A stretch of DNA of 64,000 nucleotides from Pseudooceanicola marinus (GTDB taxonomy: Bacteria > Pseudomonadota > Alphaproteobacteria > Rhodobacterales > Rhodobacteraceae), in NCBI RefSeq assembly GCF_002786295.1, contig NZ_PGTC01000015.1, positions 2,501 to 66,500 on the forward strand. The letters run 5' to 3'. The position numbers and the translations under genes are program-made. Below are positions 115 to 55,709 of the stretch, in pieces. Positions within the stretch are counted from its first letter, which is position 1. The number at the start of each line of letters is the position of its first letter. The notes under the pieces were generated by a model. It saw nothing but the letters and a program-made list of their open reading frames with translations, ran no database searches and was not told the origin of the DNA.

Positions 115-2947
<2,833 letters not shown>

Positions 2948-3023
2948 GTTCCAGTAGAAATCAGGAACGATCAGAAGTCACTGACGCGGACTGATTGATA
3001 TCTCTCAAGTTGGATTTTTCCTC

Positions 3024-3141
3024 GGTCTGGTGGTCATAGCACGAGCAAAACACCCGGTCCCATTCCGAACCCGGAAGTTAAGTGCCGTCGCGCTGATGGT
3101 ACTGCGGCTTAAGTCGTGGGAGAGTAAGTCGCCGCCAGACC
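3024..3141 (+). rRNA. rrf: 5S ribosomal RNA
   Basis: About 118 nt. The ends GGTCTGG (3024-3030) and CCAGACC (3135-3141) form the terminal helix, and the interior (ACCCGGTCCCATTCCGAACCC, GATGGTACTGCG, GGGAGAGTA) is typical 5S. It follows 23S by about 76 nt. No tRNA follows; many Rhodobacteraceae rrn operons carry an initiator tRNA here, but this one goes straight to a terminator. Confidence 0.97.
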
Positions 3142-51824: not shown

Positions 51825-52912
51825 AGCAGATGCCCCGACTTCGAGGCCTTGGTGGCGAGGTAGCCGCGGTTGTGGGCATTTTCGCCGACCTTCAGGGCCA
51901 CGCGGTCAACCACGTCGATGCCGTTCTTTTCCATCATCGCGATCTTGCGCGGGTTGTTGGTCAGCAGCCGGACGGAGGAGAAGCCCAGCCGGTCGAGCAG
52001 TTCGGCCCCCAGGCGGAAGTCCCGCTCGTCATCCTCGAAGCCCAGCCGGTGGTTGGCCTCCACCGTGTCGAAGCCCTGGTCCTGCAGGGAATAGGCGCGC
52101 ATCTTGTTGGCCAGACCGATGCCGCGTCCCTCCTGATTGAGGTAGAGCAGCACGCCCGCGCCCTCCTGGCCCATCTGGGCCAGGGCCGCGTGCAACTGCG
52201 GGCCGCAGTCGCATTTCAGCGATCCCAGGACGTCGCCGGTGAAACAGGCCGAATGCAGCCGCGCCAGCACGGGGGTGTCGCGGGCAGGGCGGCCGATTTC
52301 TACCGCGTAGTGCTCCTCGCCGCCGTCCTCGGGGCGGAAGATGTGCAGGCGTCCGGCCTCCGAGACCTCGATCGGCAGCCGGGCGGAGACCACGGGGCGC
52401 ATCGGGCTGAACCGGTCGAGGTGCAGCGCCGCGTCATCGGCCGCCAGCAGGGTGAGGTTCCAGTTGCGGGCGAAGGCCTCGGGCGCGTCCAGTGGCAGCA
52501 GCAGGGCGGCGGGCAGCAGGCGGGCGGTTTTCGCCAGCTTCAGCGCGATGCGGTGCAGCGCCGCCTCGCCGTCGCGGCGCGCCATCAGCGGGCCCTTCAT
52601 CGGGTGGCGCAGGTCATCCGCCGGGTCTGCCAGCGCCCGGACCCAGCTGGTTTCGGCGCCCTTCGGCAGCGGCAGGCGGGCCAGGTCGCCGTCATAGGGG
52701 CGGGCCTTCAGCGTCTCGGCCCGGCGGGCGGTCAGGGCCAGGTCGGCAGTGCCGGGCAGGCCCTGCACCTCGGCCAGTCGGGCTGGCGTCAGGGTCTCCG
52801 CCGCCAGCACCAGCGCGCCGCCGCCATGGGCCGCCAACACCACCGGCACGCCCAGGCGCAGGTCGGTCCGCGCACGGGCCAGGCATTCGGTGATGTCGGG
52901 GGCGAGACTCAT
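51821..52912 (-). CDS. ribA: GTP cyclohydrolase II
   Basis: A 363-residue protein. The C-terminal half is GTP cyclohydrolase II, first step of riboflavin synthesis: zinc ligands Cys223, Cys234 and Cys236 ([18 protein letters not shown]) and [12 protein letters not shown]. The N-terminal 170 residues are an extension without catalytic motifs of dihydroxybutanone phosphate synthase. Not in a rib operon here; it precedes the YkuD gene. Confidence 0.92.
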
Positions 52913-53040
52913 CGGGCGCTTCCTTGAAACTGGCGGTTGTCATAGCCTGACTTGACGGTGTTTGAAACAATCCCCGCGTGGGGGACACGGATGCGTGAGA
53001 TATTTGCAGCAAATCTTGTCACCCTTGCAGCCCCCGTCCA

Positions 53041-53053
53041 CCTGTCTGACAGG
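53041..53053. promoter_or_regulatory. Palindrome upstream of the response regulator gene
   Basis: CCTGTC-T-GACAGG is a perfect 6-1-6 inverted repeat 31 nt before the start codon. It could be an operator or an mRNA hairpin; no known factor is recognised. Confidence 0.35.
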
Positions 53054-53083
53054 ACAGATGAAATTGCAGCGGAGGCGCGCGCC

Positions 53084-53773
53084 ATGGCACAACAACTGAA
53101 GAAGATCCTGCTGGTCGACGATGATGACGATCTGCGCGAAGCGCTGAGCGAACAGCTGGTGATGACCGAGGATTTCGACGTCTTCGAGGCCGGGTCCGGC
53201 GCGGAGGCGATGCAGAAGGTCAAGGAAGGCCTGTTCGAGCTGATCATCCTCGACGTGGGTCTGCCCGACACCGACGGGCGCGAGCTGTGCCGGCTGATGC
53301 GCAAGCAGGGCGTGAAGAGCCCGGTGCTGATGCTGACGGGGCATGACAGCGACGCCGACACGATCCTGGGTCTGGATTCCGGCGCCAATGACTACGTCAC
53401 CAAGCCCTTCAAGTTCCCGGTCCTGCTGGCCCGCATTCGGGCGCAACTGCGCCAGCATGAGCAAAGCGAGGACGCCGTGTTCCAGCTGGGCCCGTATTCC
53501 TTCCGCCCGGCGATGAAGCTGCTGGTGACCGAGGAGGATAGGAAGATCCGGCTGACCGAGAAGGAAACCAATATCCTGAAGTTCCTCTACCGCTCGACCG
53601 AGAGCGTGGTGCCGCGCGATGTGCTGCTGCATGAGGTCTGGGGCTACAACGCCGGGGTCACGACCCATACGCTGGAGACGCATATCTATCGCCTGCGCCA
53701 GAAAATCGAGCCCGACCCATCCAATGCCCGCCTTTTGGTGACCGAAAGCGGCGGATATCGGCTGGTGGCGTGA
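53084..53773 (+). CDS. OmpR/PhoB-family response regulator
   Basis: A 229-residue regulator. The receiver domain has the acidic cluster DDDDD (about 11-15), phospho-acceptor Asp in LIILDVGLPDTDG (about 54), Thr in MLTGHD and Lys in VTKPFKFP. The winged helix from about residue 132 ends THTLETHIYRLRQKI and ESGGYRLV. No histidine kinase is adjacent, so it is an orphan here. I used ATG 53084 (MAQQLKKILLVDDD) with GGAGG 9 nt before; the longer open frame is not supported. Confidence 0.9.
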   Translation: MAQQLKKILLVDDDDDLREALSEQLVMTEDFDVFEAGSGAEAMQKVKEGLFELIILDVGLPDTDGRELCRLMRKQGVKSPVLMLTGHDSDADTILGLDSGANDYVTKPFKFPVLLARIRAQLRQHEQSEDAVFQLGPYSFRPAMKLLVTEEDRKIRLTEKETNILKFLYRSTESVVPRDVLLHEVWGYNAGVTTHTLETHIYRLRQKIEPDPSNARLLVTESGGYRLVA

Positions 53774-53821
53774 ACCCGCTTCGAATGTAAGGAATTCCGG
53801 ACTTTCTCCTTTGGGCTGTGC

Positions 53822-53921
53822 CGCGTAACAAGAGAAAGGTTCCCGGGAACCAACCCGCACATATCCGGGTTAGATATGTACCTCCCTGTTGGACTGGCCC
53901 GGGCTTTGCCCGGGCTTTTTC
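53822..53921 (+). ncRNA. Candidate small RNA or structured 3' UTR
   Basis: Downstream of the response regulator is a run of structure: the perfect palindrome GGTTCCCGGGAACC (53838-53851); AACCCG/CGGGTT (53852-53857 with 53866-53871); the competing CATATC/GATATG (53860-53865 with 53873-53878); an unpaired ACCTCCC (53880-53886) able to pair with ribosome sites; and a terminator at 53897. Such CCTCC-loop RNAs are known in alphaproteobacteria. It may be processed from the regulator mRNA or have its own promoter. Confidence 0.35.
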
Positions 53922-53922
53922 T
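53897..53922 (+). terminator. Intrinsic terminator after the response regulator
   Basis: GCCCGGGC-TTT-GCCCGGGC (53897-53915) followed by TTTTTCTT. It lies 123 nt beyond the stop codon, which leaves room for a 3' RNA. Confidence 0.9.
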
Positions 53923-54068
53923 TGCCCAGCCCCCGCACAGACCGCCTTTGACACCTGGGCGCAGGACACATCTCGTGGATCAGCTGGGTGTGGATCAGCG
54001 GGCCGATACCCTCGTCTGTCGGTCCGGCAGGATGGGCGCAGGGCGACGCCCGGGCCCAGGGGGATGCG

Positions 54069-55709
54069 TCAGAACTCGCTCCATTCGTCGCTGGCCGCAG
54101 CGGGCGGGGCGTTGACCACCTTTTTCTGCGCCACGGGGGCGCGGGGCGCGCTGTCCAACGGAGTGAAGATCCCCATACTGTCGTCGCCCGTCTCATGGTC
54201 CTCGCCGGTCTGGAACCGTAGCATCAGTGTCGACAGGGCCTCCGCCTCGCGGTTCAGAGCCGAGGAGGCGGCGTTGGTTTCCTCGAACATGGCGGCGTTC
54301 TGTTGCGTGACCTGGTCCAGCTCCTTCATGGCCTGATCGATTAGCGCGATGGAGCCGGATTGTTCGTTGGCGGAGGAGGCGATCTGCGCCACCAGTTCGG
54401 CCACGTCCGAGACCGCTTCGGCAATGCTGCGCAGGGCCTCGCCGGTTTCGTTCACCAGGTCGACGCCGTTCTGCACCTGCTCCGAAGACCTGGCGATCAG
54501 TTGCGAGATCTCGCGGGCGGAGGTGGAGGAGCGCGCAGCCAGGGCCCGCACCTCGGTTGCCACGACGGAGAAGCCGCGCCCGGCCTCGCCCGCCCGGGCA
54601 GCCTCGACCCCGGCGTTTAGGGCCAGCAGGTTGGTCTGGAAGGCGATGTCCTCGATCACCTGGATGATTTTGTGGATCTCCGACGAAGAGGTTTCGATGG
54701 CCGCCATGGCGTTGACCGTGCGCTGCACCACCGTATCCGAAACCGCCGAGCGCGAGCGTGCTTCCTCCGCCACGCCGGAGGCGCTGCGTGCGGCCTCGGC
54801 GGTGGAGCGGACATTCTGGTTGATCTCCTGGATGGCGTTCGCGGTTTCCTGCAGGGAATGGGCCTGGCGTTCCGTCCGGTTGGCCAGCGAATCCGAGGCA
54901 GTGGCGATGGAATCCGCGTCTTCGGAGACCGAGCGGGCGTTGCGGATCACCTGTTGCACGGTGCCTCGCAGTTCCGCGATGGCCTCGTTGAAGTTCTGGC
55001 GCAGGCTGTCGTGGGCCGGATCGAAGGCCGTCTGGATGGAGACCGACAGGTCGCGCCGCGCCAGGCGGGTCAGGGCATCGCCCAACTGTTGCACCACCTG
55101 TTCCTGCACGCGGACTGCCTCGCGCTGCATCTTCTGTTCGCGCTCGGCGGCGCGGACGCTGGCCTCCGTCGCCTCGGCCATGTGGGTGTCCAGCCGCTGG
55201 CGTTCGCGGATCAACAGGTAGAGCACGGCGGCCTCCAGCGCGACGATGGTGCCGTGCAACCCGGTGCGGGCGAGGTTTTCCACGAGGTCGACCGAGGGGT
55301 AGATCAGCCCCGGCATCGCCACCGTCAGGACGACGTGCTGCACGGCGATGGCGGCGGCGGAGGTCAGGATGACCCGCCCATCCGACAGCGACATCGTCAC
55401 CGCCAGCAGCGCGAAATAGAGCATGTGGCTGTCCATCTGCCAGGGATGGCCGGTCAGCGCGGCGGAGAAGGCCATGGCCTGGCCGGTCAGGGCCAGGCCG
55501 ATCAACACCCGCCCGTGCCGCCCGCCGGTCATCGTGCCGAAGAGGGCGACGGCGGCCATGAGCACGGCGAAGGCGCCGACCGGGAACCAGGCGTTGCCCA
55601 CTAGAAACGCCGCCCCCGGCGCCAGCGGCACCAGCGCGACGGTCAGCTGCGCCAGGCGCGTCATGGCCCGAACCTGGGCCTCCTTGAACTCTGTGTTCTT
55701 GGGTATCAT
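54069..55709 (-). CDS. Methyl-accepting chemotaxis protein
   Basis: A 546-residue chemoreceptor. The N-terminal 160 residues are about six membrane helices with almost no periplasmic part; [17 protein letters not shown] (about 85-101) is a motif seen in such receptors. A HAMP-like region follows (about 190-250) and then the signalling domain, with hairpin tip [30 protein letters not shown]. The C-terminus DEWSEF resembles the xWxxF tether for CheR/CheB. Overlaps the small gene upstream by 4 nt. No che genes are in the window. Confidence 0.92.

Follow-up and report, generated by a model that had tools for sequence, protein, structure and literature searches.

A SorX-family small RNA in the 3' UTR of a response-regulator gene of Pseudooceanicola marinus, with a possible 5' pseudoknot

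What kind of RNA lies behind the OmpR-type response regulator gene in this part of the Pseudooceanicola marinus genome, and how is it folded? A preliminary description of positions 53822-53921 of the 64,000-nucleotide stretch analysed here (the window) listed a perfect palindrome, two mutually exclusive hairpins, a free ACCTCCC and a strong terminator, and read them as a small RNA or a switching 3' UTR. All four elements are present as described: the palindrome GGTTCCCGGGAACC, two helices with positions 53860-53871 in common (AACCCG at 53852-53857 with CGGGTT at 53866-53871, and ACATATC with GATATGT; Table 1), ACCTCCC at 53880-53886, and the terminator hairpin.

Identity and distribution of the RNA

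The covariance search that the preliminary description had proposed as a check, run with Rfam over the whole window, returned a match to SorX (RF02784) at 53852-53921 on the forward strand, with 74 bits against a cut-off of 46.6 and an E value of 2.8e-16 for the whole window, which places it beyond chance. The match covers the model at full length (positions 1-73 of 73) and begins behind the regulator stop codon, which ends at 53773, i.e., inside the 3' UTR. The SorX RNA of Rhodobacter sphaeroides, formerly named RSs2461, is cut from the 3' UTR of the mRNA of an OmpR-type regulator according to passages of PMC6238624. The element at 53852-53921 is identified with high confidence as a SorX RNA, a member of the published family. 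A plain 3' UTR that ends in a terminator and gives rise to no separate small RNA would suit the fold of the whole stretch 53822-53921, which is just mildly more stable than its shuffles (z -1.95; 9 of 200 shuffles equally good), but it is highly improbable in view of the full-length SorX match, the co-variation of both stems in relatives described below, and the RNA published from the corresponding position in R. sphaeroides.

Table 1. Features of the window around the SorX element, with strand and basis of assignment
Feature	Position	Strand	Basis
23S ribosomal RNA gene, window start	116-2948		
5S ribosomal RNA gene, window start	3026-3140		
OmpR-type response regulator gene, with SorX in its 3' UTR	53084-53773	+	ORF, ATG at 53084
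Perfect 14-bp palindrome GGTTCCCGGGAACC, immediately before the predicted 5' end of the mature RNA	53838-53851	.	sequence; not conserved
Mature SorX small RNA, predicted, 70 nt	53852-53921	+	RF02784 match
Putative pseudoknot stem 1, 5' strand CCCG, extendable to 53852	53854-53857	+	sequence; co-varies with the loop among relatives
Stem 2, 5' strand ACATATC	53859-53865	+	Rfam consensus helix; several kinds of pair at each position among 84 copies
Putative pseudoknot stem 1, 3' strand CGGG, within the stem 2 loop	53866-53869	+	co-variation
Stem 2, 3' strand GATATGT	53873-53879	+	Rfam consensus helix; pair types in 84 copies
Unpaired core CCTCCCTGTTGGAC, presumed target-pairing segment	53881-53894	+	near-invariant in 145 copies (core-selected); also in the SorY-like sibling
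Intrinsic terminator and 3' end	53896-53921	+	9 pairs, 8 of them G-C; T-rich tail
Terminator hairpin proper	53896-53916	+	T-rich tail behind
Convergent gene, reads like a methyl-accepting chemotaxis protein	54069-55709	-	frame read by eye

The same genome contains a SorY-like sibling RNA (G000:C17:316369-316450; L002:1465-1546) with a core and terminator as in SorX, which scores 55.2 bits with the SorX model (over the cut-off) and 66.1 with the SorY model (under the cut-off of 111). A weak third match of 29.1 bits (G000:C17:209154-209231; L005:1501-1578) contains CCTCCCTGTCAGACTGG and a terminator-like hairpin.

SorX-like matches are widespread among the family genomes, with RF02784 matches at E 0.001 or better in 282 of 295 genomes (over the cut-off in 232), the 282 being an upper bound for true SorX because genomes often have several matches, SorY-like copies among them. 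Only 1 of 14 control genomes has an RF02784 match, and that one is below the cut-off. A draw at the order level gave a match in all 81 genomes (70 over the cut-off), although it is silent on other families, since its 81 genomes come without exception from that one family and many of them also figure in the family draw. For comparison of individual copies, a first set of 80 loci (84 copies) and then a held-out set of 60 loci (61 copies) were taken from the higher-scoring among the matches listed. The 145 copies were chosen by their match to a 13-base core, one mismatch being allowed; three second copies of the first set (L052, L089, L115) were excluded by eye before counting, and two loci without the core (L195, L200) were dropped from the held-out set. 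Across these sets the genomic setting is nearly constant, with an orthologue of the regulator (80-91% identical) upstream of SorX on the same strand at 79 of 80 first-set loci and an orthologue found at 59 of 60 held-out loci (60 of 61 copies). At these first-set loci the core of the nearest copy lies 33-185 nt behind the regulator stop codon, and the regulator of the window is 88.9% identical to that at the mapped R. sphaeroides SorX (L041). Five loci (L102, L104, L120, L186, L198) carry tandem SorX pairs behind a single regulator gene, and both copies of each pair were parsed as the two-stem fold.

Two overlapping helices: pseudoknot or switch

In a nested folding model of the predicted mature RNA, in which the two helices exclude each other, stem 1 has a probability of about 0.96-0.97 and stem 2 of about 0.03. 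A model of this kind settles on stem 1 and leaves no place for stem 2, which leads to the switch reading of the preliminary description. In the alignment of relatives, however, the loop of the Rfam helix contains a GGG that matches the 5' CCC, an arrangement in which the two helices would interlock as the stems of an H-type pseudoknot.

The relation between tail and loop was examined blind to pairing by setting stem 2 from the hairpin alone, taking the last C-run of the tail, and then reading both the base behind that run and the base that opens the loop. In the first set, C opens the loop in all 59 copies that have a CCCG tail, and G does so in 21 of the 23 that have a CCCT or CCCA tail (2 of 84 copies in neither class); in the held-out set the figures are 30 of 34 and 23 of 25 (2 of 61 in neither class), the counts 21/23 and 23/25 including copies with loop base A. 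Of the counts used here, those in these two tables alone are pairing-blind. An earlier pairing-blind table, built on the first CCC of each tail, had 49 G-C, 17 C-G and 16 other combinations, with 2 copies lacking CCC or GGG omitted; that rule was less clean and has been superseded by the last C-run rule. Eight of the 61 held-out copies fall outside the G-C, T-G and A-G cells, and inspection by eye indicates that four of them, the G-G cases, are still complementary in CCC/GGG, that L191 pairs T with A, and that a clear stem 1 is lacking in the second copy at L153.

Counts of a second kind come from a joint parser that favours pairing, an L2 linker of 0 and a loop near 8, and that requires an L1 of at least 1 and an L3 of at least 2. 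Under this parser the first pair of stem 1 is GC in 91, CG in 48, TA in 3 and TG in 3 of the 145 copies, and 142 of the 145 copies can form a stem 1 of at least four pairs, compared with 54% when tails are shuffled. Because more than half of the shuffled tails can also pair, complementarity alone is weak evidence, and it is the co-variation that carries the case for a pseudoknot.

The number of independent changes was estimated on trees of the regulator genes. With 80 genes, the tail and loop states each change at least 7 times; with 137 genes, the 5' base changes at least 23 times, the 3' base at least 20 times and the pair 23 times. On supported branches the smaller tree has 3 independent pairs, with the loop base following in about two thirds of cases, and the larger has 4, with the loop base following in all 4, although three or four supported changes are too few for significance and single-gene trees are weakly resolved. 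Since few of the paired changes lie on supported branches, their independence is likely rather than proven.

As expected of an H-type pseudoknot, the two stems interlock in these RNAs and each of them shows compensatory changes. The comparison suggests that an H-type pseudoknot is a better reading of the two helices than mutually exclusive hairpins: as a pair of co-varying stems the putative pseudoknot is well supported by the aligned copies, and as one fold with both stems present at once it is moderately supported. The hairpins of the preliminary description are exclusive in nested folding, as it claimed, but the tail and loop co-variation explains them better as pseudoknot stems; likewise, its alternative of a small RNA or a switching 3' UTR holds for a terminator-ended small RNA in the 3' UTR and probably gives way, in its second half, to the pseudoknot. 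A literature search for SorX and pseudoknot together found no paper, the original SorX paper, which might describe one, lying outside that search; a conserved pseudoknot in SorX is possibly a new structural feature.

A true switch, with stem 1 (AACCCG/CGGGTT) and stem 2 belonging to different states of the RNA (e.g., before versus after cleavage, or on binding of a target or Hfq), would fit the co-variation of both stems equally well. It would also agree with the share of about 97% that nested folding gives to stem 1 in the mature RNA, and with the behaviour of a longer transcript beginning at 53810 (this start being an assumption based on the distance in R. sphaeroides; the stretch from 53822 folds alike), which folds with stem 2 while the tail CCCG pairs with the upstream palindrome. 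Yet that competing palindrome occurs in the window alone of 84 copies, and the spacing between the stems is near-fixed, with L1 of 1-2 nt in 135 of 145 copies, L2 of 0 in 140 (the value that the parser favours) and L3 of 3-4 nt in 135; the window has 1, 0 and 3 nt. Fixed spacing counts against a switch because a pseudoknot needs it and alternative hairpins do not, and a switch is regarded as rather unlikely.

The palindrome itself was described correctly as perfect, but it lies outside the SorX RNA. Perfect palindromes of 14 bp number 13 in the window and average 9.1 in 20 base shuffles, which is near chance level, and the 40 nt upstream of SorX are weakly structured overall (p under 0.05 in 11 of 84 copies, a test in which the window's own row was placed 12 nt too far upstream because the palindrome contains a CCC, an offset that leaves the palindrome count unaffected). 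With conservation in 1 of 84 copies, namely the window's own, the palindrome is ruled out as a conserved regulatory or processing element. It also scores as a weak minus-strand terminator-like site behind the convergent gene.

Origin of the 5' end: cleavage and promoters

The model for the formation of the 5' end is R. sphaeroides, where a 116-nt precursor and a 75-nt product have been mapped and where, in the passages of PMC6238624 that deal with processing, another nuclease (the first cleavage being ascribed to other enzymes) yields the precursor and RNase E the 75-nt product, whose 5' end is the RNase E site. Passages of PMC3320616 report that SorX is co-transcribed there with RSP_0847 from an RpoHI/II promoter. 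The SorX match in genome G051 starts at C4:2,598,225, adjoining the RNase E position 2,598,224 given for R. sphaeroides in the same parts of PMC6238624, and this sets the distance from the mature end to stem 1 at 2-3 nt. By homology, the SorX RNA of P. marinus would be the tail of the response-regulator mRNA, released by cleavage just upstream of 53852.

A second source of 5' ends is suggested by the region between the regulator and SorX in relatives, where the commonest 7-mers are parts of an FNR-like box. A perfect box of the FNR/FnrL type, defined as TTGAY-N4-RTCAA, occurs in 25 of 84 first-set copies and in 16 of 61 copies of the held-out loci, which were fetched after the idea of a box had been formed. 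In 38 of the 145 copies a perfect box lies 38-56 nt before the 5' end (mode 41; 25 at 38-43 nt, 10 at 46-48 nt and 3 further off), the 5' ends of boxed copies being predicted positions. TTTA follows from 19-21 nt behind the box in 26 of these 38 copies (18 of 25 in the first set, 8 of 13 in the held-out set), and the upstream CTTTA motif counted separately (16 of 84 copies against 4.4 in shuffles) was later understood as part of the boxed promoters. Perfect boxes are rare in the controls (0.0 per 145 in shuffles, 0 of 143 in regulator coding sequence, 3 of 143 in downstream stretches). At L149, L162 and L184 the perfect box lies just 8-10 nt before the predicted 5' end, where it would hinder rather than activate a start. 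A relation between the presence of a box and the distance from regulator to SorX (a box in 0 of 30 cases with a short gap and in 36 of 108 with a long one) was discarded as evidence; it is close to a tautology, since a box has no space in a short gap. The box is taken here to be an FnrL site, presumably so from its consensus and class II geometry, which stand beside a ChIP-seq report for R. sphaeroides. That report, in the passages of PMC4263372 concerned, places an FnrL site where the promoter of RSs2461 (= SorX) is presumed to lie; the FnrL passages of PMC8307010 contain nothing on FnrL control of SorX.

These boxed copies (38 of 145, with TTTA in 26) and the ChIP-seq site at RSs2461 raise the alternative that SorX of P. 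marinus is transcribed from a promoter of its own within the 3' UTR and not cleaved from the regulator mRNA. The P. marinus genome does encode Crp/Fnr-type proteins; the best candidate for a box near -41.5 in the window copy agrees at 7 of 10 positions, and a simple consensus scan of 52900-54060 gave no match to a sigma-70-type promoter. The only other genome of the genus in the draw (G192) likewise has no box (5 of 10). An own promoter is considered decidedly unlikely for P. marinus, and cleavage is retained for the window copy.

For the family as a whole, the distribution of boxes suggests that some relatives may give SorX its own oxygen-sensor switch. The wider proposal, whose chances appear evenly balanced, is of a pseudoknot-capped SorX whose 5' end can arise along either of two routes that come out almost alike, cleavage of the regulator mRNA or initiation at a class II promoter of the FNR/FnrL type; the cleavage route would apply in R. 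sphaeroides and presumably in the window too, and the promoter route in about a quarter of the sampled copies. If this is true, the SorX family would form a natural series from a by-product of mRNA decay to a gene with its own oxygen-responsive promoter. The uneven occurrence of the FNR-type boxes would make the gain of own promoters by 3' UTR-derived RNAs comparable within one family.

Proposed function and relation to known small RNAs

The free ACCTCCC noted in the preliminary description corresponds to a conserved segment, CCTCCC, whose six bases are identical in 145 of 145 copies, an invariance that is partly due to selection because the copies were picked on the 13-base core, allowing one mismatch. 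That this segment blocks ribosome sites of other mRNAs, as had been proposed, is plausible, and a search of potA-like loci and of core antisense sites in the genome gave support for no target. The antisense of the 13-base core occurs with at most one mismatch at 12 places in the P. marinus genome, compared with 2 for the reversed control, and two of the 12 are SorX and the SorY-like copy themselves. Among the other ten, frames start 6-11 nt behind the site at L211 (ATG, 54 codons) and L216 (TTG, 75 codons), and these short frames were judged unconvincing as ribosome-site targets; the remaining near-matches have no frame behind them or frames of 11-12 codons. Pairing with potA was not above background for the best 8 of 146 P. 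marinus and the best 8 of 131 G051 potA-like matches, in a test of little power, since the best duplexes with potA reach the 11% level of the background in both genomes.

Taken as a whole, the account that appears probable is of a SorX RNA cut from the tail of the regulator mRNA and composed of pseudoknot, core and terminator, with 5' capping and target pairing as its putative functions. The mature RNA would have three parts, namely a 5' H-type pseudoknot (CCCG/CGGG and ACATATC/GATATGT), the unpaired CCTCCCTGTTGGAC, and a terminator hairpin presumably of the kind bound by Hfq. The pseudoknot may cap the 5' end, guarding it against decay that depends on the 5' end and fixing where processing stops, and CCTCCC would pair with target mRNAs at or near their ribosome-binding sites and lower translation in oxidative stress, by extension from SorX of R. 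sphaeroides. The region is thereby assigned to a known stress regulator, and the idea of a switch gives way to a testable fold; a pseudoknot, if real, would offer a simple reason for the fixed 5' end of a processed small RNA.

Among known systems, FnrS of E. coli resembles the present RNA in that FNR-type control would apply to the SorX copies of some relatives, but it has no sequence kinship with SorX (RSs2461 is stated, in the literature passage concerned, to have no similarity to FnrS), and the window copy is without an FNR box. SorY of R. sphaeroides (RF02651) has its core and terminator in common with the window RNA, whose 39.3 bits nevertheless fall far under the SorY cut-off of 111 and whose 5' half is unlike, which places it outside SorY; passages of PMC6238624 report an own promoter for SorY in R. 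sphaeroides, and Rfam gives no clan for SorX or SorY. The closest relative is SorX of R. sphaeroides (RF02784), with a full-length match in sequence and structure, an OmpR-type regulator upstream, the CCTCCCTGTTGGA core and the terminator. Cleavage, Hfq binding, induction by singlet oxygen and stress, and regulation of potA are, in the published passages concerned, properties of the R. sphaeroides RNA only.
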